A DNA stretch of 64,000 nucleotides from positions 1 through 64,000 of the forward strand of contig NZ_PZKE01000007.1 in the NCBI RefSeq assembly GCF_003034965.1, in the 5' to 3' direction. Source of the stretch: Fuscovulum blasticum DSM 2131. GTDB lineage: Bacteria; Pseudomonadota; Alphaproteobacteria; Rhodobacterales; Rhodobacteraceae. Positions 13,490 through 38,809 of this stretch are shown here, one piece after another. The notes below the pieces were generated by a model that saw nothing but the letters and a program-made list of their open reading frames with translations, did no database searches and was not told the DNA's origin. The position numbers and the translations under genes were made by a program. Numbering within the stretch: the stretch's first letter is position 1; every line of letters begins with the position of its first letter.

Positions 13490-13685
13490 GTTCGGCGCTG
13501 GCAGGTCTCCCGGCTTGCGGATCTCAGGGGGGGCTTGCCCCTGGCGGTAACCCTGCCTTCCCGGCCGGTCAGGCCAGTGGCGGTGGGTGACCTGTCCGGT
13601 CACGGTCGCGGGGGCGGCTGTGTTCTGGGCCAGGCGGCCACGGACACATTCCCTTTTCACCTGTCATGAAGACAGGCACCAGCCG
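13490..13685 (-). promoter_or_regulatory. Cobalamin (B12) riboswitch
   Basis: On the minus strand the region carries the hallmark elements in order: GGTGCC near 13680, GGTGAAAAGGGAA, the GCCCCCGCGACCGTGA junction, GCCACTGG, GGGAAGGC, and the B12 box with GCAAGCCGGGAGACCTGCC (about 13501-13520). It precedes cobB, whose start is about 120 nt downstream, so adenosylcobalamin should repress the operon. A TTGACA hexamer on the minus strand at 13714-13719 is a candidate -35 element. The IS3-like insertion begins only about 150 bp upstream. Confidence 0.95.
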
Positions 13686-14731: not shown

Positions 14732-15008
14732 GGCTTGAGCTTTCGTGACAAAAAATCGTTGGCCACAGCCAGCTCCCCGATCTTCGCGTGCAGCGCTCGC
14801 ACCGTATCTTCGTCGACCTCAGGGGATTTCTTGCCGCCCCGCTCGAAGATGTCCGCCGCGCCGTCCAGCAAAGCTTTCTTCCATTGGTGGATCATCGTCG
14901 GATGCACGCCGTATTCGGCGCCCAGTTCCGACACTGTGCGCTCGCCCTTCACGGCCTCTAGCGCTACGCGGGCCTTGAATCCCGCGCATGGTTCCTGCGT
15001 TTCTTCAT
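14716..15008 (-). pseudogene. IS3-family OrfA, frameshifted
   Basis: Helix-turn-helix protein of IS3 elements. The downstream frame (14716-14952) reads KGERTVSELGAEYGVHPTMIHQWKKALLDG and continues to a Lys-rich end. The natural start MKKRRNH lies at 15008 in another frame that stops at 14964. One base is missing near 14983-14990, where a family-like sequence would read NHxAGFKARVALEAVKGE across the junction. Only a short product from the ATG at 14952 remains possible, lacking the first part of the HTH. Confidence 0.82.
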
Positions 15009-15348
15009 GCCCTGATCTCCTCGTTCTTGGAGACCAGCAGCCGTCAGATCATAGCTTCCGTCACTGTCCGATTTTCGGGGGGAGCTCATGAGGGAAGGGC
15101 TGGCGTACCAGTGCAGCCCATGCGTACGACGATCCGTTCTGCATGTATGGGATAACTCGTCTCCACTGGCTGACCGCGCAAAAGGGTTTTGGTACGCCAA
15201 GAAACATGCTCGACAACTGTATAAAGGCGCCATCACACATATTCAAAGCGAAGGCGGCAAATGGATTTGCTTACGCCTGGTTCGAAGTGGAACTCTCAAA
15301 CGTTCCGATGTAAGTTTGCTGAGAACAATAAAAGAACAGGATAACCCA

Positions 15349-17013
15349 GTGACAGAGGCTGTGAGGTTCACGAAACGCTATGGCGACGTTGGGAAGGCCA
15401 AATCTGACGGGGCAACCTACACACCCAGAGCTCTTGCTGACTTCGTGGCCGCCCGCATCCTAGCAACCGCCGACCTTGCATCTGGACGGGCCATAAGGGT
15501 TCTTGACCCTGCCATAGGACACGGCGAGTTGCTCCTCGCTCTACTGGACCGAATTGATGGGCCTGTCGAAGTCTTCGGATTTGAGACAGACCATTTGGCG
15601 TTGGCTGAGGCTCGCAGGCGCCTGTCTCGCGAACATCCACAGGCTGCCCTAAACCTTCGCCTTGGCAGCTTCTTGGACCATGTGCTTGACGACTTCACGG
15701 ACGGGCTGTTCGGCAGCCCGGAACGTTATCACATCATCATCGCCAACCCACCGTATGTACGTACACAAATCATGGGTGCCGACCGTGCGCAGCAACTCGC
15801 CCAGCAGTTTGGGCTGACCGGGCGCGTCGACCTGTACCACGCCTTTCTGCTTGGCATGGCGACAGTTTTGGCACCCGAAGGTGCGGCGGGGTTCATCGTT
15901 TCAAACCGATTCATGACGACAAAGGGCGGCGCATCCGCGCGCGCCGAGATGATGACTGGCCTCAGGCTGCGCGAAGTTTATGACTTAGGCGACACAAAGC
16001 TGTTCGATGCTGCAGTGCTGCCTGCCGTGCTTATCGCTCGTGGCGCAGGTGTGGAGGCTGCCGCGCCGTCCTTCTTGACAATCTACCAGACAAAAGACGA
16101 GCCTGCGCATACGGCCGCTGACCCGATAGAAGCCCTTGGGAAACAAGGCGCGGTGGCTGTTCCCGATGGCCGGACCTTCCTCGTTCAACACGGGACGCTG
16201 GACACGGGTGGGGATCCCGCCGGGGTGTGGCGTCTGGCGTCGGCAGGCGTGGAAAGCTGGTTGGCAACCGTGGAAAGGCACACTTGGGGCACCTTCCGCG
16301 ACATTGGCAAGATCAGGGTCGGGATCAAGACGTGCGCCGACAAGGTGTTCCTGCCCAAGAAATGGGAACGCGAGCTTGAGCTGCACCGACCTCTGACGAC
16401 GCACCACAACGCGCGGCGCTTTCGGCCCGAGCCACACAACCGGCTGGTCCTGTACCCGCACCACGCGGTTGATGGCAAAAAGCAAGCCGTGGACCTGTCA
16501 CAGTACCCGGCCAGCCTCACATACCTTGAGCAGCACCGGCGGACCCTGGAGGACCGCAGCTATGTAATTGAGGCCGGGCGACAGTGGTATGAAATCTGGG
16601 TACCGCAGAACCCGGCGGATTGGCCCGGGCCGAAGCTGGTGTTCCGAGATATTTCCGAGCAGCCCACCTTCTGGATGGACCTTGAGGGGACGGTTGTGAA
16701 TGGCGACTGCTACTGGCTGACCGGCGATGAGGACCTGTTGTGGCTCGCGGTGGGCGTGGCCAACTCCACCTTCATCGAGCGCTTCTATGACCTCCGCTTC
16801 AATAACAAGCTCTATGCGGGGCGGCGGCGGTTCATCACGCAGTATGTCGAGCAGTTCCCCCTCCCTGACCCCGCCAGCAGCGGCGCACGAGAGATTGTGA
16901 CTGCCTGTCGTGACCTGTACGCCCGGATGGCCGATGGCCCAGACCCAGCGCTTGAGCAGCGTATTGACAGAATGGTGTGGGCAGCGTTCGGACTACCTGT
17001 CGAAGAAGTCTGA
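15349..17013 (+). CDS. Type II N6-adenine DNA methyltransferase
   Basis: 554-aa methyltransferase from GTG 15349, which has AGG eight bases upstream; the frame stays open back to 15088 inside the IS end. Motif I is VLDPAIGHGELL and the catalytic motif is NPPYV (N133-Y136 from this start), typical of gamma-class N6-adenine enzymes with an Eco57I-like catalytic domain. The long C-terminal part (about 250-550) should hold the target recognition region. It overlaps tail-to-tail by 21 bp with the restriction endonuclease. It would protect the cognate site in host DNA. The recognition sequence cannot be read from the protein. The IS3 insertion immediately upstream may have replaced the native promoter. 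Confidence 0.88.
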   Translation: MTEAVRFTKRYGDVGKAKSDGATYTPRALADFVAARILATADLASGRAIRVLDPAIGHGELLLALLDRIDGPVEVFGFETDHLALAEARRRLSREHPQAALNLRLGSFLDHVLDDFTDGLFGSPERYHIIIANPPYVRTQIMGADRAQQLAQQFGLTGRVDLYHAFLLGMATVLAPEGAAGFIVSNRFMTTKGGASARAEMMTGLRLREVYDLGDTKLFDAAVLPAVLIARGAGVEAAAPSFLTIYQTKDEPAHTAADPIEALGKQGAVAVPDGRTFLVQHGTLDTGGDPAGVWRLASAGVESWLATVERHTWGTFRDIGKIRVGIKTCADKVFLPKKWERELELHRPLTTHHNARRFRPEPHNRLVLYPHHAVDGKKQAVDLSQYPASLTYLEQHRRTLEDRSYVIEAGRQWYEIWVPQNPADWPGPKLVFRDISEQPTFWMDLEGTVVNGDCYWLTGDEDLLWLAVGVANSTFIERFYDLRFNNKLYAGRRRFITQYVEQFPLPDPASSGAREIVTACRDLYARMADGPDPALEQRIDRMVWAAFGLPVEEV

Positions 17014-18027
17014 CGGCAGCGGTATCTGGAGCTTCTTGTTGAGGACCTTTCCGCCAAACTGCGGGAAGCGAGAGAAGAAGCTAGCCCCTGTCGTCAGGTA
17101 CAGGTGCGTCAGAGTGACCTCAGCCCCGTTAGTATGGGCATAGAACAGGGCATAGCGAACGTCGCAGTGGCGGACCTGCGTTCCGGCGATCTGCGGAACG
17201 TCCAGAGGCTCCTCACTGGCCGGTCTCACCAAGCCAAGGTCGATGGTTGGTGAGGTCTGTAGCTTGACCTCCAGCAACTGGTTCCGAACATCGGGAAAGC
17301 GCCCATCGTCGCGGTAATCGGCATAGCCCAGAAGCTCGCAGACGATGCGGTGCAGCGCGGCGCCCCTGTTACGCTCCTGATCCCAACCCGCATCAGGGAA
17401 GGACTGGCCAACCGCGCCGCGCAACCTCTCGAAAACTTCGCCAATTGGCAGGAGGAGGCCGTGTGCGGGATGGTGTATCGGGCTCACGGTCTGGGCTAGG
17501 TTCGCCCAGGCCCGGGTGTGGGGCAGGAGGGAGTCGGTGTCGGTCGGGGAGGTCAACTCCTCGGATGCCAACCCCGGGATCAGCCTCGCCTGATATTTCT
17601 GTGTCAGGGTGCCAGTGGTGTCGAGCTGCGCCAGCTCCTCGCCGTTGACGACCTTTACCCGTACGATTTGGTCTGCGTCATCGACACGCAGGATGACATA
17701 GCGGCGCGTCGGGGAGAGCTCCTCGTTCCAGACTTGGAGGTTGTTAGACTTCTGGGCATAGGTGTCGAACATCTGGCCGACAAAGCGGGGTTGGGTCTTC
17801 TTGAAGCTTGGGGGCACAGGGTAGCCCAAAGCGCGACAGACGTTCTCTTTGATCACCTTTGATCGTGTCCGGAGGGCCAAGCCGGCCAGGCTGATACCCC
17901 GTAGCCGCTCGTCCAGCAGCCCCTCAAGTTCGGGTGTGGGTATCCACAGGTCGGGGTCGCCAATTTCAATGGGATCGTAAATCGTAAGAGCACTATCGGC
18001 GATTGCTCGCGCGTAATCCTGACTCAT
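16993..18027 (-). CDS. Probable type II restriction endonuclease
   Basis: 344-aa protein convergent with the methyltransferase. A PD-(D/E)xK nuclease signature is visible as FPD (D246), then EVK (E253, K255) in FPDVRNQLLEVKLQ, preceded by a helix bearing RGAALHRIVCELLGY. This is the arrangement of many type II endonucleases, and the pairing with a DNA methyltransferase makes restriction the most economical function. Family membership is not certain. Start ATG 18027 lies in an AT-richer stretch that may be its promoter. Both genes look intact. Confidence 0.8.
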   Translation of the reverse strand: MSQDYARAIADSALTIYDPIEIGDPDLWIPTPELEGLLDERLRGISLAGLALRTRSKVIKENVCRALGYPVPPSFKKTQPRFVGQMFDTYAQKSNNLQVWNEELSPTRRYVILRVDDADQIVRVKVVNGEELAQLDTTGTLTQKYQARLIPGLASEELTSPTDTDSLLPHTRAWANLAQTVSPIHHPAHGLLLPIGEVFERLRGAVGQSFPDAGWDQERNRGAALHRIVCELLGYADYRDDGRFPDVRNQLLEVKLQTSPTIDLGLVRPASEEPLDVPQIAGTQVRHCDVRYALFYAHTNGAEVTLTHLYLTTGASFFSRFPQFGGKVLNKKLQIPLPSDFFDR

Positions 18028-19497: not shown

Positions 19498-20271
19498 CGC
19501 TTACGGCTCGTAAACCGTTGACCAAGTGTTGACAAGAATTTGGAACGACGAAAGCCGAGCGTTATGATCGGCTTTGAAGTCTTTGATAAGACTTGTAGTT
19601 TTTGCGAGGGCAGGATTTGAACCTGCGGCCTTCAGGTTATGAGAGCTACCCAAGCGTCCGGAATATCCGCGTCTTTTCCGATTTTAGCCGATTTTCAGGT
19701 CAGCAACGTCGGCGTCGTATCGCGTGAAACATCCGTAAGCCGATGAAAGAAAATGGGAATCCAGATCAACCCGTCAGCTACACTGCGCACGTCAAACAGG
19801 CTTCCGGTAACATCTACTGTAAAAGGCGGCACCGCGGTGCCGCCTAGGTTGGTTAACAAAGATTTCGCCTGCCGTGCCGCTAACGCATGGCGCGACAGAC
19901 CACGCTCGCCTTAAGGTTACGTCGGCAAGCTGCGCCAATGGGCGCAGACATGCTCGATGCAACCGAACCGACGGCGCGTATAACGCCTGATCCAGATATG
20001 TCAGGTCATGCCCTTCTCCTTTCTTGGGAAGAGGGTTTCGCTTGATGCGGGCCGAAATTTGTGGAACACTCAAGTTGTTGAATCGAGGATGTCCACGGGC
20101 TTCGGCCCGCTATGATGTTCACCTATATGGGAAGCCAAACCTGCCAGGGTTTAGCTTTTCCTGTTTAAGGTCACCCGCGCCGGGCGGTTTTCAACGCGAC
20201 GGACCCAAGTCTCTTCTCATCGTCACCTCCGTGGCATCTTGGCGGGACTACCCTTGTCGCCTGACAATCCG
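19498..20271. other. Non-coding stretch between the two accessory blocks
   Basis: No credible gene in either strand. It holds the tRNA fragment at 19604-19650 and a perfect palindromic hairpin GGCGGCACC/GGTGCCGCC at 19825-19844 without a T tract. At the right side it ends with an 18-bp transposon-end-like sequence at 20249-20266. The 93-codon minus-strand frame at 19792-20073 has no family resemblance and crosses the hairpin. Confidence 0.6.
19604..19650 (-). other. Fragment of an initiator tRNA (fMet) gene, possible att site
   Basis: On the minus strand the sequence runs GTAGCTC, TCATAACCTGAAGG, then GCAGGTTCAAATCCTGC and CCTCGC. This is the 3' two-thirds of an initiator tRNA-Met: CAT anticodon, variable region, T arm and acceptor 3' strand. 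Relative to the usual tRNA-fMet, seven bases between GTAGCTC and TCATAA are missing and the 5' acceptor strand and most of the D arm are absent. It cannot fold as a tRNA. Such 3' fragments are typical scars of integrase-mediated insertion at tRNA genes. Confidence 0.75.
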
Positions 20272-20289
20272 TGTCAGGCGACAAGGGTA
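20249..20289. repeat. Two abutting transposon ends, inverted, 5-bp spacer
   Basis: Bases 20249-20266 (TACCCTTGTCGCCTGACA) are the exact reverse complement of 20272-20289, separated by ATCCG. The right half is the left end of the element below. The left half matches the element's right end (30356-30373) at 17 of 18 positions. It thus looks like the last 18 bp of a second element copy lying to the left, or a duplicated end. Confidence 0.8.
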
Positions 20290-20395
20290 AGTATCTCAAT
20301 CAAAGTTGCATGGCATTAATTTAAAATAGATTTGTTTCGTTTTTTGACATGAAGGGTTATCTCAAACGACATCTGAATTTATCTCACTTCACGTC
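20272..20395 (+). repeat. Left-end repeat array of the Tn7-like element
   Basis: Terminal repeat followed by three related motifs: AAGTATCTCAATCAAAG (about 20287-20303), GGTTATCTCAAACGACATCTGA (about 20356-20377), and TTTATCTCACTTCACGTC (about 20379-20396). Spacing is uneven, with an AT-rich gap. Candidate transposase binding sites. Confidence 0.65.
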
Positions 20396-20569
20396 ATCTT
20401 CACCTTTATTACAGATTTGGCGCCTTTCGGTTCGTATGAGAAATTCCGGACAATGAGGGGTTCCCTTGGTGCAGAGTGCGTGGTCTGATGGACGTTAGGC
20501 CCCAAAGAACGACCCAGCGGCGGTGTGTGGCCGTCCCGCCAGAAGGCAGGCCTAGGCCTGATGTGATTG

Positions 20570-21127
20570 ATGGCCCATTGGTACACTGCCGACCTGCATT
20601 TTGGTTGTGGCAGCATCGTCGCGAACGCGCAGCGCCCGTTCCGTGACACCAGCCATATGGACTCTGTGCTGGTCGAGCGGCTTTGGGAGAAAGTCGGCCC
20701 CGGGTATGACCTCTGGATCGTGGGCGACTTCGCGTTTGGACCGAAGGCGAAGGACGAAGACTGGCTGCTGAACCTCTTCAGCCAGTTGCCCGGCGCGCGG
20801 CGGCATCTGATCGTCGGCAACCATGACGGCCGGCTGACGCAGGCGCTGCCCTAGGACAGCGCAGCATGGCTCGCTGAGCTGAATGATCCGGCGGCCGACA
20901 AACCTGTCACGCTCTGCCACTACCCGATGATGACCTGGAACCACGCACGTAAGGGGGCTCTGCATCTGTTCGGCCATGTGCATTGCAACTGGCAGGGCAC
21001 CGCCAACAGCGTGAATGTCGGTGTCGATGTCTGGGGCTTTTACCCTGTCACCCTGATTGACGCCGCTCGCCGCGCAAAATCCTTGCCGCAGCACAGGCAC
21101 TGGAAGGATGTGGAGCCGCGCGCCTAG
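20570..21127 (+). pseudogene. Metallophosphoesterase with internal amber codon
   Basis: Calcineurin-like phosphoesterase of about 185 codons. Metal-ligand motifs are TADLHFG, VGDFAFG, VGNHD, LCHYP and LFGHVH, in the right order. An in-frame TAG at 20852-20854, between GNHDGRLTQALP and DSAAWLAELND, interrupts it; a Trp codon is the likely ancestor. Both halves stay open and family-like, so the lesion looks recent. The product would stop after the GNHD motif and lack the last two metal-binding blocks. First gene inside the element's left end. The substrate is unknown. Confidence 0.85.
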
Positions 21128-21459
21128 GCAGATATGGCCGGGCACAGGCCTTTCCTACACGCAGGGGCTTCTTCGAAGGGCGGTAATGCCCCAGCTTCCC
21201 AGACGTCCGCCTCGGTCGGTTTCAGCTGCTTGTTTCCACACCAACGTGCGACGCCAAGCCACTGTAGTGAAGACGGCCCTTTGCCGTCGGTCGAGTTCTT
21301 CGGGTGCAGCACTGCAGCATTCCCGAAGCAGCCGTTCGCAGCATCTTGAGATGCCTAGGCAGCAGCAGTATCTGGCCATCGGTCCATTTGTGGGCAAGAC
21401 ACTTCAGCAAATTCCTTGTAGGATTCACCGAAGCAGCGCGAACTCTGATTGATTGAACA
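21128..21459 (+). other. Non-coding stretch upstream of ietA
   Basis: 332 bp without a supported gene. Short frames here have no family resemblance. It probably contains the ietAS promoter, but I see no convincing -35/-10 pair or repeat. Confidence 0.4.
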
Positions 21460-22512
21460 ATGGCGAGAAGTGACCTCCTGATAGCTCTTGTGCGCGCCGG
21501 TGCAGTCGGTGATCGGGACATGCTGCGGTCAACGACCGAGGCCTTGGTGGCCGAGGAGCGCGCTCAGAACCATCACATCGTTGCTGATCGGCTCGAGAGG
21601 GCGATGTCGAATGTCCCGGTCTCACCACCAACGCTGACCTCGGCTTCTTTGCAGTCCGGGGCGGGCAAAGACGCCATTCTGGAAATCGAACCGCAGACCA
21701 GGATGGAGCAGCTACTTCTGCCGCTCCCTGTCCAGGAAAATGGCCGTCAGCTGGTGCAGGAGCATGTCAGAGCCGATGTGCTGCGCGCTCATGGATATGA
21801 GCCTCGTCACCGTGTTCTCCTGTCTGGACCTCCCGGCAACGGAAAGACGTCTTTTGCCGAATCCGTGGCCGAAGCTCTCGGCCTTCCGTTCCTCATGGTA
21901 CGCTACGATGCGTTGATCGGAAGCTATCTGGGTGAGACAAATACGCGCCTGCGCAAACTGTTCGACTATGTCCGAACCCGGCCAAGCGTCCTTTTTTTTG
22001 ATGAGTTCGACTCAATTGGCAAAGAGCGGGGCGATACGCATGAAACCGGAGAAATAAAGCGGGTTGTTTCGTTCCTACTGATGCAGCTCGATCAATTGCC
22101 GAGCTATGTGATTGTTATCGCTGCGACTAACCACGGCGAACTGCTGGACAAAGCAGTGTGGCGACGATTCCAGCTGCGTCTCGATTTTCCAGCGCCGGAC
22201 AGGGCCCGAGTCGAAGAATATCTTGACCGCGTGATCGCTCATTGGCCAGATAGACCAAGCCTCACGATCCGCTCCATTGCCGGAAAGCTTGGGGCGGTAA
22301 GCTATGCCGAAGCGCTCGATTTCTGTCAGAGCGTGCGTCGAAGGCAGATATTGGGACTGGGAGAGGTGTCTGTCGACACGGCGCTGAAGATCGAACTCGA
22401 TCTCTGGACCTCCCGAGTGAGGCCGGAGGCACTACTGGATGGTCAGCGACCCGAGAAAACCACTTCTTCGGCTCGAGCCCGGAAAACCGCAGGGACGTCT
22501 GACAAGGGATAA
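21460..22512 (+). CDS. ietA: IetA-like AAA ATPase (antitoxin/defence partner)
   Basis: 350-aa single-domain AAA+ ATPase. Walker A GPPGNGKT, Walker B VLFFDEFDS, sensor 1 VIAATNH, an arginine-finger region (VWRRFQLRLDFP) and the pore-type loop GSYLGETNTRLRKLF resemble FtsH/Vps4-type ATPases. It is followed with overlap by a subtilisin-like protease. That pair is the ietAS module, described as a toxin-antitoxin stability system of the Agrobacterium plasmid pTiC58, with IetA as the antitoxin, and later recovered as an anti-phage system. The start ATG 21460 has only a weak ribosome binding site. Both genes look intact inside an otherwise decaying element. Confidence 0.88.
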   Translation: MARSDLLIALVRAGAVGDRDMLRSTTEALVAEERAQNHHIVADRLERAMSNVPVSPPTLTSASLQSGAGKDAILEIEPQTRMEQLLLPLPVQENGRQLVQEHVRADVLRAHGYEPRHRVLLSGPPGNGKTSFAESVAEALGLPFLMVRYDALIGSYLGETNTRLRKLFDYVRTRPSVLFFDEFDSIGKERGDTHETGEIKRVVSFLLMQLDQLPSYVIVIAATNHGELLDKAVWRRFQLRLDFPAPDRARVEEYLDRVIAHWPDRPSLTIRSIAGKLGAVSYAEALDFCQSVRRRQILGLGEVSVDTALKIELDLWTSRVRPEALLDGQRPEKTTSSARARKTAGTSDKG

Positions 22513-24979
22513 TCCCGGCTTCCCGCAGGGGCCCGAGAAGTTCGAGCGGCAGGCGCAGGGACAGAGACACGGACCCAAGTTCCAGCGTTTGGCCGATGTG
22601 CTTGCTCGGGATCCTGCTGGACTTGAACTCAAGCAAGATCCCACAGCACTCGCGCCGGAACGGTTACTCGTCTTCGAAGTGCGTGGAAGCATTCAAGACT
22701 TTGCCCGCGCGATCACGAAGGTGGTGGGCCTTGAGCTGATCGATGAGGAAGATCTGCCCTCCGACGAGGACAAGCAGCCTGTTGCCTATCTGCTGATACC
22801 CGACGCCAAGGCCTTGGAGCAAATACTACGTCTTTGGTCTATCTGGTTGGAAACCGGGGAAGTTCCTACGGGCTTCACCCCATGGCGCAACGTGTTTGAC
22901 TGCCTGCGCGATCTACGGCCATGGGGACCGTCCGACAGGGTTCAGGGCACTGATCGTGACATCCTGAGTGCGCAGATCGCCGAGCGCGCTGATGACGAAC
23001 TGATCACACTTGAAATTGAGCTGGTCTTCCGCGCGCAGGCCAAAGCCGGAAGGTCGAACGAAACTGAGGTTGAAACGGCAATCCAGTCGCGCGGCGGAAA
23101 TATCATCAGCCGGGCAAGGCTCGACGACATCGCTTATCACGCCCTTCTGGCGCGCCTGCCCGTAAACGCAATCCGCGCGATCATAGATCGCGCTCAGTCA
23201 AGCGTCGCGGGTCTCGATCCTGTTATGCATATCCGCCCGCAAAGCGTGGCGACAGCGTTGGATGTGGAAGATATGCTGCCCATTGGGGCAGTCGCACAGA
23301 GCGAAGAGCTTTCGCCCGATGCCATCCTGGCCTTGCTCGACGGAGTTCCTGTCGCGGCTCATCCGCTCTTGCGACAGCACTTGATCGTCGAAGACCTCTT
23401 TGGTTTGGAACCCGAAGCAATGGTGAACCAGCGTGTGCATGGCACCGCGATGGCCTCCCTTATCATTCATGGTGACCGCAATCGGCCTGAGGCACCGTTG
23501 CCCCGCCGTATTCACTGCATCCCAGTTCTCGGAGCCGCTGACGCGTTTCCGGAAGACAGGCTGATTGTCGATGTCATTTATCAGGCAATCCTACATATGC
23601 GGGAATCGGCGGAACCTACCGCTCGCCACGTCATCATCGTCAATTTGTCACTGGGAAATCGACATCGACAGTTTCAGGGCCAGATGTCGCCCTGGGCGAG
23701 GCTCCTTGATCGGCTTGCGTATAGGTTCGGGATTCTCTTTCTGGTCAGCGCAGGAAATATCATCAGGGATTTTGAAATCCCAGGTTACACGACAAGCGTA
23801 GATCTTGAGGGAGCAACGCCGGATGCCCGGTCGTCGGCGCTTATACAGGCGCTCGCGAATATTCAGGCAGATCGCCGATTGCTGGCTCCAGGGGAGACCG
23901 TCAACGGACTAACTATCGGTGCCAAGAATTCAGACTGCGTCTCGGCTGCGGATCGTGTGTTCGCGCGGACAAATGTTGATCCCTATCCCTGGCTGGATAC
24001 ATCAAATCCTTCCAGCGCACTGGGACCCGGCTTCGCTGGTTCCGTAAAGCCCGACATTCTAATGCCCGGTGCGCGAGAACATCTGCGCGTTACAGCCAGC
24101 GGCAGTGGAGCGGCGATCCGGGTTGCACCGGGTCGTCCGGGTCGGGGAGCCGGACTTAAGGTTGCCGCACCTCCGTCCAGTCAAGGATTGGAAGGCGCCG
24201 AGAGCTACACCAATGGCACGAGCGCTGCGACCTCTGTAGCATCGAGAACCGCACATCGGATCCATGATGCACTGGAAGCAGCATATGGCGAAGCATTTCT
24301 GTATCTGCCCCCACGAAACCGCGCGGTATTGCTAAAGGCGCTCCTGGTACACCCGGCCAGATGGCCGGACGCCACGGCGTCCTTCGTACGTCGACTCCTC
24401 GGGCCGCATGGCAGGGGGCAGGCCCCGAGGCAAAAAGACAATATTCGTCGGTTCGTCGGATATGGATCCGTCGACCCCGATGAGGCCGTCACATGTGCTG
24501 CGGATCGGGCGACGTTCTGGGCAACGGGTGAATTGGGCCCGGAGCAACGCTTGGCAGTTTCAGTGCCGATACCGGCTGCCTATGGAGGTAAAGCCATGCC
24601 GCATTCCTTGTCCGCAACCCTAGCATGGTTCACGCCGGTCCTCGCCGGGCGCCGATCCTATCGAACGGTAAGGATGAAGATCCTTGATCCTGACGACATC
24701 GACCGCCTTAGCGTAAAAGCGCATGGCGATCAGCCCGATCTAAACCAAACCAATCGCGGCAGCGTCTATACTCGCTCTTGGCGCGGCGATGGGGCCGCCG
24801 TTGTGGCGGCCGACATGAGTTTGCCCTTGTGGGTTCAGCGTGAGCCAGATCAAGGAACCCGCCTAGACGAGGCGGTCACCTTTGGCTTGGCCGTTACGAT
24901 CACAATGCCCGGCGTGAACGAAATTTACGACCAAGTGCGTGATCGCTTGCGTGATCCGCAGCGCACACATGTCAGATAG
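22439..24979 (+). CDS. ietS: IetS-like subtilisin-family serine protease (toxin/effector)
   Basis: 846-aa S8 family peptidase. The triad is visible as D301 (LLDGVP), H334 (VHGTAMAS) and S595 (NGTSAATS). The N-terminal ~280 residues carry no signal peptide and probably form a regulatory or target-sensing domain; about 240 residues follow the catalytic Ser. It is cytoplasmic by inference. It overlaps ietA by 74 bp in another frame, consistent with coupled synthesis so that the ATPase restrains the protease. In the known system IetS is the toxic component. No lesion seen; the insertion between His and Ser is longer than in secreted subtilisins. Confidence 0.88.
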   Translation: MVSDPRKPLLRLEPGKPQGRLTRDNPGFPQGPEKFERQAQGQRHGPKFQRLADVLARDPAGLELKQDPTALAPERLLVFEVRGSIQDFARAITKVVGLELIDEEDLPSDEDKQPVAYLLIPDAKALEQILRLWSIWLETGEVPTGFTPWRNVFDCLRDLRPWGPSDRVQGTDRDILSAQIAERADDELITLEIELVFRAQAKAGRSNETEVETAIQSRGGNIISRARLDDIAYHALLARLPVNAIRAIIDRAQSSVAGLDPVMHIRPQSVATALDVEDMLPIGAVAQSEELSPDAILALLDGVPVAAHPLLRQHLIVEDLFGLEPEAMVNQRVHGTAMASLIIHGDRNRPEAPLPRRIHCIPVLGAADAFPEDRLIVDVIYQAILHMRESAEPTARHVIIVNLSLGNRHRQFQGQMSPWARLLDRLAYRFGILFLVSAGNIIRDFEIPGYTTSVDLEGATPDARSSALIQALANIQADRRLLAPGETVNGLTIGAKNSDCVSAADRVFARTNVDPYPWLDTSNPSSALGPGFAGSVKPDILMPGAREHLRVTASGSGAAIRVAPGRPGRGAGLKVAAPPSSQGLEGAESYTNGTSAATSVASRTAHRIHDALEAAYGEAFLYLPPRNRAVLLKALLVHPARWPDATASFVRRLLGPHGRGQAPRQKDNIRRFVGYGSVDPDEAVTCAADRATFWATGELGPEQRLAVSVPIPAAYGGKAMPHSLSATLAWFTPVLAGRRSYRTVRMKILDPDDIDRLSVKAHGDQPDLNQTNRGSVYTRSWRGDGAAVVAADMSLPLWVQREPDQGTRLDEAVTFGLAVTITMPGVNEIYDQVRDRLRDPQRTHVR

Positions 24980-25103
24980 CAGCGGAATATTGATGGCAGG
25001 TCCAGTGCCTTGAGCGCCACGCGTTGAGTAATTAACGACCTTTGCGAGACGCTGCGGGCGCCATGCCGCGCTGCAGCCTTCCAGTTCTTCGCGCATTATG
25101 TGT

Positions 25104-25172
25104 GTGTTTCGGCGTACAAAATTGACCCCTTAAGGAGGGTTATTGGCGTCCAATTTTGACCCCCCTGAAGTT
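25104..25172. mobile_element. IS21-family end remnant
   Basis: The run TTTCGGCGTACAAAATTGACC followed by a second, related block (CCAATTTTGACCCCCCTGAAG) is typical of IS21-element termini with repeated terminal motifs. No istA or istB sequence adjoins it, so this is a scar. It lies between ietS and the 3' part of a disrupted minus-strand gene. Confidence 0.6.
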
Positions 25173-25208
25173 CTATCCGCCCGTTCGCTTCGAGGCTGCA
25201 GCGCCGAT

Positions 25209-25477
25209 CTAATGGCGTTCCATGTTCGCCATGGCGAGCAATTCCATCGCTCTGACCCGAAGTTCAGGTGGGCCGGACGCCGCGATTTCTGCCAGCCGCT
25301 TCATGACAGATTCGAAGTCCAAGAAGGTACCGACGTTTTCGCGCTTGAGGACGAAGTAGCGACCTCGGTCACTACTATCGACAGATGACACAAACATGCC
25401 TAGGGCACTGACTAGACCATCGTCAGTTTTGGTAACCAGGGCAAGGACGCTAGTAGGTCCGTCCTCATAGCCTGCCT
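25209..25477 (-). pseudogene. 3' part of a gene split by IS256
   Basis: Minus-strand frame with natural-looking sequence (YEDGPTSVLALVTKTDDG, GRYFVLKRENVGTFLDF) ending at 25209. It has no start of its own and begins at the IS256 left boundary. It appears to be the C-terminal part of the gene whose 5' part is at 26851-27214. Joining the two after removing the IS and one duplication copy still needs a one-base shift near the junction, so the gene carries more than one lesion. I do not recognise the family. Confidence 0.55.
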
Positions 25478-26850
25478 GATGCTGTCCCTGACCGTGGTGT
25501 AGGTTCTGGCTGAGGTGGTCACCGGGGATGTTCGGTTAGGGTCTGGTTGCTTACGCCAACCCAGGACCGAGAGGACCACCGATGACCACCGACATGATGA
25601 ACCTGCGCGACCTCGTCGAGAAGACCCCTGATGCCGATCTGCTACGCGAGATGATCGGCTTTGCCGCCGAACGGCTGATGGAGCTGGAGGTCGGCGCCGT
25701 GACTGGCGCGGCCTATGGCGAGAAGGATCCGGCGCGACGGGCGCAGCGCAACGGATACCGCGACAGGGATTGGGAGACGCGCGCCGGAACCGTCGAGCTG
25801 CGCATCCCGAAGCTTCGGAAAGGCAGCTACTTCCCCGGCTTCCTCGAGCCCCGGCGGATGGCCGAGAAGGCGCTGACCGCGGTGATCCAGGAGGCCTATG
25901 TCCAGGGCATCTCCACCCGCTCCGTCGACGATCTGGTCAAGGCCATGGGCATGTCGGGGATCAGCAAGAGCCAGGTCTCGCGGCTCTGCGAAGAGATCGA
26001 TGGCAAGGTGAAGGCGTTCCTCACCCGCCCGCTCGAAGGCGATTGGCCCTACCTCTGGATCGATGCCACCTACCTCAAGGTTCGGCGCGGCGGGCGGATC
26101 GTCTCGGTGGCCGTCATCATCGCCATCGGTGTGAACACGGACGGACGGCGCGAGGTTCTGGGCCTGGAGATCGGCACATCCGAGGCCGAACCGATCTGGA
26201 CGGAGTTCCTGCGCAAGCTGACCCGCCGGGGGCTGCGCGGGGTCAAGCTGGTCATCAGCGACGCCCATGAAGACATCAAGGCCGCCGTCGCGAAGGTTCT
26301 CAGCGCCACCTGGCAGCGCTGCCGCGTCCACTTCCAGCGCAACGCCTTGGCACATGCCGGAAAGAGCGGGCGCAGGGTGGTCTCCGCCTTTATCGCCACA
26401 GCCTTCGCCCAGGACACCGCCGAGGCCGCCAGCACCCAGTGGCGTGCCGTGGCCGACCAGATCCGGCCCAAGGTGCCCAAGCTGGCCGCGCTGATGGATG
26501 ACGCCGAGCACGACGTGCTGGCCTACATGTCCTTCCCGAAGGAACATCGGGCCAAGCTGCACTCGACGAACCCGATCGAGCGGCTGAACGGCGAGATCAA
26601 GCGTCGCACAGACGTCGTCGGCATCTTTCCGAACGACGACGCCATCGTCCGCCTCGTCGGTGCCTTGCTTCTCGAACAGAATGATGAGTGGGCCGTCCAG
26701 CGCGCCCGCTACATGACACTGGAAACCATCGCACCGATGGGCGAAAATACCGTCATCAGTCTGCCCGCTGCGGCATCCTGATCAACCTGGCCCGCGCCGA
26801 GCATCACGGTGACGATCAGCGCCAGCTACACCACTCCACAGGACAGCATC
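25478..26850 (+). mobile_element. IS256-family insertion sequence with 8-bp duplication
   Basis: 1373 bp with terminal inverted repeats starting GATGCTGTCC at both ends and one transposase gene. It is flanked by direct 8-bp copies GCCTGCCT at 25470-25477 and 26851-26858, the duplication length expected for IS256. Complete ends, an intact transposase and an intact duplication indicate a recent insertion. Confidence 0.93.
25582..26781 (+). CDS. IS256-family (mutator) transposase
   Basis: 399-aa DDE transposase. Catalytic D in [11 protein letters not shown] in [10 protein letters not shown] and E in [15 protein letters not shown] are all present. The C-x2-H stretch (RCRVHFQRN) typical of the family follows the second Asp. 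Full length and intact, so it should be active. It starts 104 bp from the IS left end at an ATG preceded by GAGAGGACC. Confidence 0.95.
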
Positions 26851-27214
26851 GCCTGCCTGACGCCAAGCGAAAAAGACTTATCGGACGAGGCGTATCTATC
26901 ATCGTCGTGAGGTCGGTCGAGCGATAGTGGTCGATCATGATCTGGTACGCGGCCTCGAACTCATTTTCGGATAACCACCAATCTTCGCGTCGCTTCTCCT
27001 ATTCCCCGTACTTACCGTGCGCGAACGTTTCTCGGCGCAAAATGGAGGTCAACCAGCCAAGCGCCCGCCCTTCTGCGAAGAACTGCTTGTTGATGACTTC
27101 GCGTTCATCCTTGGCCATATGGGCGTAAAGGATGGGAACCAAACGATCCACGCGATCCCAACTATCTACGATAAAACTCTCTTCGCCGGGGTTCAGGCAA
27201 TAGGCATCGTTCAT
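26851..27214 (-). pseudogene. 5' part of a gene split by IS256, with nonsense codon
   Basis: Starts at ATG 27214, overlapping the upstream metallophosphoesterase stop (ATGA), and reads MNDAYCLNPGEESFIVDSW. It contains TAG at 26999-27001, after which coding-like sequence continues (KRREDWWLSENEFEAAYQ) to the IS256 boundary. The missing C-terminus is probably at 25209-25477. Family not recognised. It was the last gene of a small minus-strand operon. Confidence 0.6.
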
Positions 27215-28218
27215 GACGTGCCCAAGGCCGAGTAGAAGATTTCGGGCTCTTTGGCTGGTCCAAAGCCTTCCTCGAGCTCTCGAAGTCGCTCAAGTAAGAT
27301 TTCCGTTTTCCGCAGCGATCCAAGCGCCTTTTGGTGATGGAGGTCCAAGAGAAACTGAGCCGTTGGGTCCGGGCCAGCATCGACCACTGCCCAGAAAATA
27401 TCGAATTCCGACTGGGTAATCGCATGAGTAGGCCTAATAAGACTGAAATACAGCCGGTAATGGTCTGGGTTGGCTAAGCGATGGCCATCGACCTCCCGCT
27501 GGCGGGTCGACCGATCCACCTTCTGGTAGATTTCTATGTGCCCCCAGATCCAGCTGTGGATGTGATGCGCCTTGATCTCTTCCCAGAGGTCGCTGGCAAA
27601 TCCGGCGCTAAGAGCGCGATCCTGATCGCGGCCAATCTCGCGGGCCGGGTGAATAAGTTGCCGCACCGGCAGGTGCTGGGTCATCACGATCGTTGCGCTG
27701 GGATAGAGCTGCGCCAAGGCCTCGAACACCGCCGCCTTCTGTTCCGCGTGCAAGGCCAACATATCGGCCCCGGTAAAGCGTCGACCGGGCGCGGTGCGTA
27801 TGGCGTGATAGTCGTTGAGCAGGCGCGGCACCACGGTCCGGGCGAGAGCCTCCAGCCCGGGATAAAGCCGGAAGTCGGTCCACAGCGTGGCGCCGATGAT
27901 CCGCACTCCGGCAAGTTCCGTCACCGCCCCATGCAGGACGCGAATGTCGAGCCCCTCGGCCTTCAGGGCCGCGAGTTGGTGGGCCTCCTCGGCGAGGAGG
28001 TCTGACCAGACGGAGCCAGAGGCCTCATGATTGCCCCAGATCAGGACGACCGGGCAGTCATACTTGCGGGCGGATGCCGCCAGAATGTCGAGATGGCGTC
28101 CGCGCGTATGGGTGTCGCCACCGATCAGCACGCCGTCGACAGGTGCGCTCGGGTCCGGAAGGTCAAAGCCCTCCCATAATTCGTCATGCAGATCGCTCCA
28201 GACCAGAAACCGCGCCAT
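27211..28218 (-). CDS. Metallophosphoesterase
   Basis: 335-aa calcineurin-like phosphoesterase with the metal-binding set in order: SDLH (8-11), GGDTH (34-38), WGNHE (61-65), TQHLP (about 187-191) and WGHIE (about 230-234). No signal peptide, so cytoplasmic. Substrate unknown; relatives cleave cyclic nucleotides, nucleic acids or phosphoproteins. The last ~90 residues are helical and lie outside the core fold. It belongs to a minus-strand operon with two small genes upstream and the IS-split gene downstream (ATGA overlap). It is the second phosphoesterase in the element; the left one is broken and belongs to a different, shorter subfamily. Confidence 0.85.
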   Translation of the reverse strand: MARFLVWSDLHDELWEGFDLPDPSAPVDGVLIGGDTHTRGRHLDILAASARKYDCPVVLIWGNHEASGSVWSDLLAEEAHQLAALKAEGLDIRVLHGAVTELAGVRIIGATLWTDFRLYPGLEALARTVVPRLLNDYHAIRTAPGRRFTGADMLALHAEQKAAVFEALAQLYPSATIVMTQHLPVRQLIHPAREIGRDQDRALSAGFASDLWEEIKAHHIHSWIWGHIEIYQKVDRSTRQREVDGHRLANPDHYRLYFSLIRPTHAITQSEFDIFWAVVDAGPDPTAQFLLDLHHQKALGSLRKTEILLERLRELEEGFGPAKEPEIFYSALGTS

Positions 28219-28227
28219 GCCATCCGT

Positions 28228-28446
28228 TCACAGGGCAAGTTCTGTGACGATGCCGGACGTCGCCAGCGCGGACAACATCACATCGACCCGGGTCACGCCC
28301 AGCTCTTCGGCCCGGCGCATGACCTCAATCTGCACGCTCATCGGGACATGCAGCTCCATCACCGACTCGAAGTCACTCTCCGGGTTCGCCCACAGGAATT
28401 CCAGCCAGGTGGTCATGCTCTGAGTCCGGTCTGGCGCTGTATTCAT
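28228..28446 (-). CDS. Small protein, possible ribbon-helix-helix DNA binder
   Basis: 72-aa protein starting MNTAPDRTQS. The second half reads as a strand (VMELHVP) then two helices (VQIEVMRRAEELG and RVDVMLSALATSG), which matches the ribbon-helix-helix layout of antitoxin-like repressors. This is a by-eye fold guess. Its ATG at 28446 overlaps the stop of the upstream 33-aa frame (ATGA), and the phosphoesterase follows after 9 bp, so the three are probably co-translated. Confidence 0.55.
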   Translation of the reverse strand: MNTAPDRTQSMTTWLEFLWANPESDFESVMELHVPMSVQIEVMRRAEELGVTRVDVMLSALATSGIVTELAL

Positions 28447-28544
28447 AGCTTGATGTCCGAGGCTTGGGGCTGGGCGTTCAGCTTTTCATCGATCTGGGCA
28501 TTCGCGGCGCTGCGGTCCTGCTCGACCAGATTGTAATCGGTCAT
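28443..28544 (-). CDS. 33-aa small ORF, first gene of the cargo operon
   Basis: Starts MTDYNLVEQDRSAANAQ and ends in ASDIKL. It is too short to assign. Support comes from the ATGA overlap with the next gene and a GGACAG element upstream. Its start codon shares the palindrome CATG with the plus-strand tniQ frame, so the two frames diverge from the same bases. It may be a genuine leader or the end of a lost gene. Confidence 0.4.
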   Translation of the reverse strand: MTDYNLVEQDRSAANAQIDEKLNAQPQASDIKL

Positions 28545-30210
28545 GGGGCTGTCCTGGCGCCGCATCTTGCAACTTGAGCCCGAGGCCCTGCAGGATCTGG
28601 CCGATCTCACCGGGGCGGATCCGGACGACTTCGCAGCACACAGCTGCATGCCAACGGGCGCGGGCGGCTTCCAGTTCAGAGGCCGCGATCTCCCCCGAGC
28701 CTTTCTCGACCGCTCCACACTGAAGCTCTGCCCGCGCTGCGTGCAGGCTGACATTGTGGATCATCGTCGAACCGGCGGTCGGGCAGAATGGCAGATTGAT
28801 CTGCTCAATGTCTGTCCGGTCCATGGCGTTCTGTTCCAAGCGCTGACACTGCCGGACTATCCGCGCTGCCCGCATGACTTTGCGGGCAGGATGGCCGAGG
28901 GGGCATTGTTGGTGCAAGCAGGGCCACAGGCTTGGCGCTTTGCGCGTTACCTGTCTGATCGTCTCCTTCGGCCTTCCCATGGTGAAACCTCCGCGTGGCT
29001 GGATGCCCTGCCGATCGATGTCGCCGCGCGGCTGTGCGAGAATGCCGGCATTCTGATGCTGCACGGCCCAGCCGCGCAACTGAAGGCCTTGGATCGCGAA
29101 GCCCGCGTCCAAGCTAATGCCACAGGCTTTGCCATCTGTGCCAACGGCCCGGAGGCACTGAGAGACGCCTATGACGGCATCCGCCACCAGTCCTCCAGCG
29201 ACAGAGGGGGTTCTACACCGACTTCGGCTTCTATACCCGCTGGCTGCAACGCCTGTCGCAGCCGGACCGTCACCGTCCGGTCCTCGATCACTTCCGGACC
29301 TTCGTGCTGGAGAGCTACCCTCTCACGCCGGGGCAGGAGGTGTTGGGGAAGCCCCGCACCGAGCAGCGCTGGTTCTCTTGGGCCGATTTGGGGCGCAGGC
29401 ACGGGCTGAGCACCGGGCGCATTGCCCGCTTCCAGAATGCCAAGGGCCTGAGAGGGAACGATCTACGGCGGGTGGCGCCCGGTCAGCATGAAGACGAGTT
29501 GACCGCCCTGGCATCGGGTCTTGATCGCAAGCAGGCCGCTCGGCGCCTGAACCTTCATCCCTCGGCCATCGACCGTTTTGCCGAGGTCGGGGTCCTGCGG
29601 CATGCCATCGCCCTGCCGCAGATGGACAGGCTGTTCCTAGGGCGCGATCTCGACCGGTTCATGGCTTCGATCTTCGACAGGGCGATGGTTGTGGACTACG
29701 AGCAAGAGGGGGGCGTTTCCCCTGCACAGCATCGCCAACAAGGCCAAGTTGCAACATGCTGATCTGCTGCGTGCCGTCCAGAACGGCCGATTGAAAGCTG
29801 CCTGGCGGCTGCGCCACCTCGACGGCCTGCCTGCCCTCAGACTGGATCTGGCTGAGGTCAAGTCGGCCTTCGAGGCGCCGCCGCTCACTGGCCTCACACG
29901 AACCGATCTGAACAAACGACTGCATATCAACTGCTCGACCGTCAGCCTTTTACTATCCCGGCGCATGATCGACAGCACGCGGGCCACCAATCCCCGCACC
30001 CGCCAGAGCCTGTCGCTGATCGCCCCCGAGGCGGTGGATCGCTTCATCGCGACCTACCTGCCGCTCGGCCTAATGGCCCATGATCTTGGCACGCAGGCAA
30101 AACATGTCTCCGCCCGGCTCGACAAGGCCGAGGTCCGGCCCATTCCTTTGCCGGACCGCTGTAGCATGATCTATATTCGCGCAGAGGCCGCGCCCGTCAT
30201 CGCGATCTAA
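28543..30210 (+). pseudogene. tniQ: TniQ-family targeting protein, 5'-truncated and frameshifted
   Basis: TniQ/TnsD-family protein, the target-site selector of Tn7/Tn5053-type transposons. The zinc-binding pairs CPRC (63-66) and CPVH (91-94) are intact. The reading changes frame twice: one base is missing in the G run at 29206-29210, before FYTDFGFYTRWL, and one is extra in the G run near 29694-29699, before FPLHSIANKAKL. Across the shifts it encodes about 555 residues with HTH-like segments near the C-terminus. The usual N-terminal start (ES...SWL region) is missing; an in-frame stop lies at 28534. Both shifts are in G homopolymers, so sequencing error is possible. Position at the element end next to tRNA-Lys suggests tRNA targeting. 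Confidence 0.8.
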
Positions 30211-30232
30211 AACCGAAGCATCGCAGAACTGC

Positions 30233-30257
30233 GCCCCGTCGATCCCATCGGCGGGGC
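30233..30257 (+). terminator. Terminator after tniQ
   Basis: Stem GCCCCGTCGAT / ATCGGCGGGGC with a 3-nt loop, followed by TTTCT. It is 23 bp beyond the tniQ stop. Confidence 0.7.
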
Positions 30258-30296
30258 TTTCTCATGACCGCAAAACGCTCTCAACGCCCCGACAAA

Positions 30297-30373
30297 AGAG
30301 GGTTGAGTTAATCTCGCATGCGGTTTGAGATAATCTCAGCGTCGTTTGCGATACTTACCCGTGTCGCCTGACA
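30297..30373 (-). repeat. Right-end repeat array of the Tn7-like element
   Basis: Reading inward from 30373: TGTCAGGCGACACGGGTAAG, then AAGTATCGCAAACGACGCTG, then GATTATCTCAAACCGCATGC, then GATTAACTCAACCC. The closely spaced motif copies, about 22 bp apart, match those at the left end in the opposite orientation. Confidence 0.7.
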
Positions 30374-30383
30374 ATCTGAAAAG

Positions 30384-30459
30384 TGGTGAGCCCGACAGGA
30401 TTCGAACCTGTGACCCACTGATTAAAAGTCAGTTGCTCTACCAACTGAGCTACGGGCCC
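30384..30459 (-). tRNA. tRNA-Lys (TTT)
   Basis: Complete cloverleaf. Acceptor GGGCCCG pairs with CGGGCTC, the D arm is TAGCTCAGTTGGTAGAGC, the anticodon loop is CTTTTAA (TTT), the T arm is CACAGGTTCGAATCCTGT, and CCA is encoded. The transposon's right end lies 10 bp beyond its 3' end. Confidence 0.98.

Positions 30460-37327: not shown

Positions 37328-38809
<1,482 letters not shown>

Follow-up and report, generated by a model that had tools for sequence, protein, structure and literature searches.

What accounts for a stretch of defence genes with transposon ends, a TniQ homologue and no Tn7-type transposition genes lying next to a tRNA gene? The question is raised by a 10,102-bp element at positions 20272-30373 of the 64,000-nt stretch of Fuscovulum blasticum DSM 2131 (contig NZ_PZKE01000007.1) that we analysed and refer to as the window. 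From sequence comparisons, we consider it very probable that this element is a decayed member of a lineage of Tn7-like transposons seated at tRNA-Lys, whose ends might be moved in trans by a complete Tn7-like element resident on the same contig.

Paired ends delimit a Tn7-like element next to tRNA-Lys

The borders of the element are made up of the following features, in which the ends are compared with those of the complete resident element.

20272-30373: Tn7-like element without tnsABC, 10,102 bp, delimited by matching ends, repeats and flanks
20272-20389, plus strand: far (left) end, with the terminal 24 nt and subterminal repeats; 79% identical to the complete element's far end over 118 nt
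30299-30373, minus strand: TniQ-side (right) end; its first 50 nt equal the complete element's TniQ-side end, and a 78-nt match including 3 flanking bases is 91% identical
20267-20271: left 5-bp flank, ATCCG
30374-30378: right 5-bp flank, ATCTG, identical to the left flank at 4 of 5 bases
30384-30459, minus strand: tRNA-Lys (UUU), proposed attachment site, with its 3' end 10 bp from the element
20249-20266, minus strand: the left end repeated in inverted orientation, 18 bp without mismatch; a possible relic of a neighbouring element

The sequence starting at 20272 (TGTCAGGCGACAAGGGTAAGTATC) and that read in reverse from 30373 (TGTCAGGCGACACGGGTAAGTATC) match at 23 of 24 bases, and with paired inverted ends that carry arrays of subterminal repeats (TATCTCAAACGACAT and variants) on both sides, the element has the architecture of Tn7-like elements. 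With up to 3 mismatches allowed, an 18-base core of the end occurs three times in the window, where 0.09 matches are expected and none of 100 shuffles produced three. Across the whole genome the 23-base end has four exact copies and no control match; two of these copies belong to the window element and two lie elsewhere on the same contig. The 5-bp flanks of the window element agree at four of five bases (ATCCG/ATCTG) and may be a target duplication; the complete relative has a perfect one (GTGAA/GTGAA). A preliminary description of this DNA, made from the letters alone, had reported matching ends, internal repeats at both ends, a near-matching 5-bp flank and a tRNA-Lys gene whose 3' end lies 10 bp away, all of which our analysis bears out.

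The third match to the end core, at 20249-20266, is absent from the preliminary description. It abuts the element across ATCCG, its homology ends after 18 bases, and we found no partner for it elsewhere in the window. It carries the left-end variant base, and its layout resembles that of another genome (G300, below), in which a second element begins 5 bases after the first. It is possibly the relic of a neighbouring element; because the left-end variant base is carried there, it may instead be a hairpin-type duplication.

The element lacks tnsABC and a working start of tniQ

Homology to TniQ lies at the tRNA-proximal end of the element, in three pieces.

28543-29211, plus strand: tniQ relic piece 1, with the TniQ domain; aligns at 52% identity with resident TniQ residues 38-264
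29196-29714, plus strand: tniQ relic piece 2, in the other frame; aligns at 51% identity with resident TniQ residues 260-432
29710-30207, plus strand: tniQ relic piece 3; aligns at 52% identity with resident TniQ residues 431-595

Piece 1 matches PF06527 at 1.8e-13, as a TniQ/TnsD-family selector would, though the gene is broken. The reading frame shifts near 29.2 and again near 29.7 kb, so that the pieces occupy two frames; because homology starts at residue 38 of the relative and the frame changes twice, tniQ is, as read from the present assembly, a pseudogene. What the preliminary description took for a TniQ gene beside tRNA-Lys is therefore present as TniQ homology and not as an intact gene, and its proposal that a TniQ of about 555 residues would read the tRNA site is not supported for this truncated, frame-broken copy.

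The same description had seen no TnsB or TnsC gene, and in agreement with this, tblastn searches of the window with the resident TnsC, TnsB and TnsA gave best E values at noise level (0.42, 0.90 and 5.3, respectively). The window element has no tnsABC, whereas relatives whose ends are the same or related do, and it is accordingly a derivative and not an autonomous member of its group: this copy has lost tnsABC and a working tniQ start, and the remainder of tniQ is either broken or, at its G-runs, misassembled. The tniQ start overlaps the tnsC stop by 4 bases in the resident element as well as in the first element of G300; as tniQ begins at the end of tnsC, loss of tnsABC together with the tniQ start would fit one deletion. 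One might suppose instead that tnsABC were never present, and that a tniQ fragment and ends were captured around the cargo and moved once in trans. The window indeed holds no trace of tnsA, tnsB or tnsC, but tniQ is damaged on the side where complete relatives have tnsC, which points to loss and not to original absence, and we consider this account very improbable.

A complete element with matching ends resides on the same contig

The complete Tn7-like element (G000:C7:77149-112548) lies 47 kb from the window element, is 35,400 bp long and has perfect flanks. From its TniQ-side end it encodes, in order, TniQ (595 aa; PF06527, 2.4e-20), TniB/TnsC (346 aa; PF05621, 4.8e-20), a TnsB-type transposase (a 780-aa open reading frame (ORF) with weak Pfam hits and a best PDB match to Tn6677 TnsB at 1.3e-19) and a TnsA-like protein of 231 aa. 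The last of these had no Pfam hit and nothing relevant in a PDB search, and is 30% identical over 220 residues to G300 TnsA (2e-32); the resident TnsB and TnsC are 32% and 46% identical to their counterparts in the first G300 element. Full copies, which the preliminary description had suggested looking for, thus exist on the contig itself and in G300 as complete TnsABC-TniQ elements.

The TniQ-side ends of the window and resident elements agree at 50 of 50 and 69 of 75 bases and the far ends at 38 of 50, and the repeat layout is the same at both ends. Their tniQ genes are 64% identical in DNA over 813 nt, and the proteins 51-52% identical.

When the flanks of the resident element are joined with one copy of the 5 bases, one frame is open across all 300 codons examined, indicating that the element inserted into a protein-coding gene, the product of which appears by eye to end in an OmpA-like domain. 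We found no tRNA gene in 76500-114500 (38 kb) around the resident element and none in 64001-82000, and the element thus does not share the fixed position at a tRNA. A tRNA-like sequence at its insertion site was considered and rejected, as 43% of 1000 shuffles score as high. PADLOC identified BilA, BilD, type I restriction subunits and a dGTPase in its cargo. Judged by eye, ORFs of the resident element also resemble ImuB/DnaE2-like proteins and an IS66-type transposase.

The same position behind tRNA-Lys is occupied in other genomes

We used a family-wide panel of 393 genomes, one per genus. TniQ matches at E up to 1e-10 were found in 77 genomes, the own genome included, with the best outside match on contig C8 of G300 (CANMUM010000008.1, "uncultured Rhodobacteraceae bacterium isolate 2B2-46-3Z", from which the family of the lineage is named). 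We looked for tRNAs around 35 distinct TniQ places outside the window element, made up of 30 loci from among those in the family-wide listing plus 5 others, with up to 1.5 kb on either side (less at contig ends). A tRNA lies near two of the 35, in G300 (tRNA-Lys UUU) and in G005 (tRNA-Arg).

In G300 the tRNA-Lys ends at 37667 and is followed after 11 bp by a first element (37679-64364), then by 5 bases (TCAAT), and then by a second element that starts at 64370 with the same starting sequence. Both tandem elements carry tnsA, tnsB and tnsC. The first has an undivided tniQ, whereas that of the second is spread over two ORFs; the two TnsA copies match PF08722 at 1.5e-4 (below the cut-off) and 1.5e-7 (above it).

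A search of the panel with the end pattern matched six genomes, including the own genome, with one control match. In G433 the end is oriented as in the window and separated by 10 bp from tRNA-Lys(UUU), and the two loci share a 236-bp stretch of 90% identity that starts behind tniQ, spans the end and reaches into the tRNA. The ends, whose absence from other genomes would have spoken against the preliminary description, thus recur at the same tRNA. Between 16000 and 39412 of the G433 contig, no match to tniQ, tnsA, tnsB or tnsC surpassed E 0.19, and every candidate second end had at least 8 mismatches over its 23 bases; a second end at up to 3 mismatches was not found in the G433 genome either, which has other, distant TniQ genes on different contigs.

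G002, from the window's genus, has an end-like stretch exactly 10 bp behind tRNA-Lys. This stretch scores 29, against 20 for the runner-up among 27 tRNA-Lys flanks (26 loci, drawn from the top DNA matches in 60 genomes), and 300 shuffles gave no score as high; the remaining 26 flanks have no such end. There is no TniQ match in G002 at E up to 1e-30, and elsewhere in that genome are two 3-mismatch end matches (one control match in that search). The spacing behind tRNA-Lys is accordingly 10 bp in the window, in G433 and, by an end-like stretch only, in G002, and 11 bp in G300, with the TniQ side facing the tRNA in the window, G300 and G433.

Other searches returned weaker matches. A DNA search of the panel with the 116-bp end gave seven genomes at E up to 0.01, of which only G433 and the own genome were strong and G429, G277, G224, G104 and G020 weak (E 2e-4 to 0.009). 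End matches at 3 mismatches in G161, G279, G133 and G235 lie in 3-kb loci without tRNA-Lys and without a match to the resident Tns or TniQ proteins (G279 has a tRNA-Met), and single 2-mismatch end matches in G022 and G048 came from a search with two control matches. The exact end type is rare, and its sole strong instance outside the own genome is at the same tRNA. A contig scan with the resident TniQ confirmed 0 of 28 stretches, and a second scan 1 of 64, which was the G300 contig already known; of two viral contig scans, one had no matches and the other 0 of 30 stretches confirmed. A plasmid search with the resident TniQ returned 44 records, all with best places below 60% identity, and those listed (20) at 21-26%.

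Two other TniQ loci may be recorded here. In the window's genus, G005:C102 (L082) 1429-2514 is a decayed TniQ beside tRNA-Arg(ACG), where by eye an end-like TGTCAGATATTTCTGG... lies ~19 bp from the tRNA and the tniQ start faces it, opposite to the window. Plasmid NZ_CP067132.1 of Paracoccus seriniphilus (L114) has two facing TniQ genes adjoining a TniB gene.

These data bear on two further accounts of the locus. Transfer RNA genes are common integrase sites, and a restriction-modification pair and insertion sequence (IS) relics adjoin the element (13.7-20.2 kb), as would suit an integrase-type genomic island at tRNA-Lys whose end-like sequences are incidental. However, the element matches complete elements of the own and another genome in its ends, repeats, spacing and tniQ, and no tyrosine integrase is present among the 12 window ORFs searched by family, the other ORFs not having been searched. 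Moreover, the 25-bp 3' end of the tRNA gene, of which integrase islands have a duplicate, is not repeated in the window even when 3 mismatches are allowed. We find this account scarcely credible.

The other account is a living helper-dependent carrier, moved actively by the resident TnsABC through recognition of the same ends. In its favour are the resident tnsABC genes themselves, TniQ-side ends that are identical over 50 bases though the neighbouring tniQ genes have diverged, the equal repeat layout, and a cargo stretch common to both elements (window 20467-21127 and cargo near the complete element's far end share 88% identity over 663 nt). Yet the genome has just one tnsABC-less copy, the window flanks are no longer identical, and a similarly conserved solo end stands in G433 with no element found beside it; recency or slow end evolution would also explain the identity. 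Active movement by this route is in our estimation unlikely. The helper-dependent carrier raised in the preliminary description has thus gained a concrete helper candidate on the same contig, though no proof of movement, while G300, G433 and G002 lend good support to its other suggestion, that of a decayed relative of tRNA-targeting Tn7-like transposons.

TniQ phylogeny and relation to known Tn7-like elements

In a tree built from 27 TniQ rows, window piece 1 and the resident TniQ form a pair at 100/99, which G300 joins at 99/97, and the G005 tRNA-Arg relic falls apart from these. tRNA-Lys may be the ancestral site of the three-member clade, for which the tips alone are indecisive. A two-row TniQ profile had as its best PDB sequence match TnsD (8v32/9bw1), a weak match with an E value of 0.0033 over a 64-position stretch; we take this TnsD chain to be from a tRNA-targeting I-B2 element. 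A structure of G300 TniQ predicted from four rows had a mean pLDDT of 40.4 and was not used.

Three papers describe Tn7-like elements that use tRNA genes as sites (PMC10293859, PMC11406308, PMC8649781). Like the tRNA-targeting TnsD/TniQ elements of the I-B2 and I-D CRISPR-associated transposon (CAST) branch, the lineage described here has a TniQ-family selector, insertion downstream of a tRNA gene and ends with repeats, and its complete relatives likewise encode TnsA, TnsB and TnsC, which the window copy has lost. It differs from CyCAST, which inserts ~30-33 nt behind tRNA-Leu (PMC10293859), in its spacing of 10-11 bp, and from the I-B2/I-D branch, in which TnsA and TnsB are fused (PMC11406308), in its separate TnsA and TnsB ORFs.

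The preliminary description called the element Tn7/Tn5053-like. The proteins are indeed like TniA, TniB and TniQ of the Tn5053/Tn402 family, and a 5-bp duplication and TGT... ends are features of that family as well. Tn5053, however, is among the elements without TnsA that use a site-specific recombinase (PMC11406308), unlike the complete relatives here, on account of whose TnsA-like protein we reject Tn5053 membership and find Tn7-like the better fit.

A survey of defence-cargo Tn7-like elements names integration downstream of tRNAs as a safe site (PMC8649781), and the window element resembles the elements surveyed in having defence genes as cargo. Loci had to show a TnsB match to become candidates in that survey, so that a tnsB-less element like this one would go uncounted. 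Our search of the open-access literature found no paper tying Tn7-like elements to tRNA-Lys or ietAS; its terms were narrow, which leaves absence from print unproven. Tn7-like elements that target tRNAs are already known, and the present one adds a member to them; its short spacing and matched helper candidate recommend it as a test case.

Evidence weighing against the assignment

Several observations count against a decayed, tRNA-Lys-seated element. With regard to tniQ, both frame changes fall in G-runs and could be assembly errors. In addition, TniQ residues 2-16 have a 15-residue match further upstream, at 28363-28407, which shares the frame of piece 1 and is followed by a stop; residues 17-37 are unmatched. 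Shuffled queries did as well in 5 of 1000 cases within 28200-28545 (345 bases next to tniQ) and in 65 of 1000 over 1.6 kb in six frames. This match may have arisen by chance or be a leftover of the former N terminus; if the latter, the 5' break of tniQ may be a disruption and not a clean deletion. With regard to the tree, window piece 1 fills just 34% of its columns, the label "beside a tRNA" is unclustered (3 changes, with 500 of 500 shuffles as low), and on three tips one gain plus one loss equals two gains in length.

With regard to the site, the flanks of the first G300 element (CCAAA/TCAAT) differ at two bases and those of the window element at one, and exact-type ends at tRNA-Lys occur in just 1 other genome of 393. 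The solo TniQ-side end of G433 is conserved at 47 of 50 bases, about as well as the window's, and end conservation alone is therefore no proof of selection for mobility. Finally, the nearest relative sits in a protein-coding gene without a tRNA-like flank, so that tRNA seating is not a fixed trait. The upstream match and the unclustered tree label slightly lowered our confidence in a decayed member of a tRNA-Lys-seated lineage, which is nonetheless the reading stated at the outset as very probable.

Cargo and surroundings of the element

Between its ends the element carries the following genes.

21460-22512, plus strand: ietA (AAA ATPase), defence cargo; PADLOC IetA 2e-141
22439-24979, plus strand: ietS (S8 protease), defence cargo; PADLOC IetS 1e-272
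25478-26850, plus strand: IS256-family insertion, with 8-bp duplication GCCTGCCT
20569-21129, plus strand: metallophosphatase-like gene with one in-frame stop; Pfam Metallophos 0.013 on the first half, below the cut-off
27211-28218, minus strand: metallophosphatase-like cargo gene; Pfam Metallophos 1.4e-5

The ietAS cargo was correctly named in the preliminary description. Its statement that no transposase is visible is accurate for Tn7-type TnsA, TnsB and TnsC and overlooks the IS256-family transposase gene. That gene is ruled out as the element's own transposase by its own inverted ends and its own 8-bp duplication. A plasmid search with the window element returned 141 records, and among the 15 matches listed all hit the IS256 stretch only.

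The window also holds, at the start of the contig (16-632), a CRISPR-like array of ~10 repeat copies with GTCGCCCCCACCCGGGGGCGCGGATCGAAAC at 64-66 bp spacing, one copy slightly shifted and the last diverged. A Cobalamin riboswitch (13497-13683, minus strand; Rfam 87.5 bits) by cob-like genes marks the chromosomal side to the left of the accessory stretch at 13.7-20.2 kb. Within that stretch, to the left of the element and between IS relics, lies the restriction-modification pair (15088-18027; Eco57I-type methylase by Pfam, type II methyltransferase and restriction enzyme by PADLOC), which could be cargo of an older neighbour. Outside the element, window 15004-15090 and G433:C91:31908-31997 share a 90-bp stretch, 81% identical and common to both tRNA-Lys neighbourhoods.

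A model for decay at tRNA-Lys and its implications

We propose that a Tn7-like transposon of the tRNA-Lys-seated lineage would have entered this site, 10 bp beyond the 3' end of tRNA-Lys(UUU), with the tniQ side turned towards the tRNA. By analogy with G300, its TnsD-like TniQ presumably recognised the tRNA gene by the conserved 3' part and recruited TnsABC; if the lineage does read tRNA-Lys, the intact TniQ of G300 is a candidate reader. A later rearrangement, perhaps one deletion, would have removed tnsA, tnsB, tnsC and the tniQ start, after which the remaining tniQ would have broken and an IS256 element landed in the cargo. The remnant would be an IetAS defence island, immobile by itself, that has kept both ends. 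As these ends match those of the complete TnsABC-TniQ element 47 kb away, they may be competent for the resident transposase, and movement in trans might still occur.

Tn7 inhibits a second insertion in a region that already holds an element (PMC11406308). One may speculate that target immunity from the window element's ends is the reason for the resident element's other location. Taken further, the tnsABC-less element would be a defence-carrying satellite that is moved in trans and closes tRNA-Lys by target immunity, whereby the complete element was diverted into a protein-coding gene; we hold this to be improbable. The tandem G300 pair speaks against strict immunity at the site, at least between those two elements.

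Taken together, our findings suggest that a Tn7-like lineage of Rhodobacteraceae uses tRNA-Lys as an attachment site, at a short spacing of 10-11 bp seen in four genomes (one by an end-like stretch only). The natural pair in one genome of a complete and a tnsABC-less element with matching ends suits tests of trans-mobilisation and target immunity, and the locus shows an IetAS defence pair left at a tRNA after its transposon decays.

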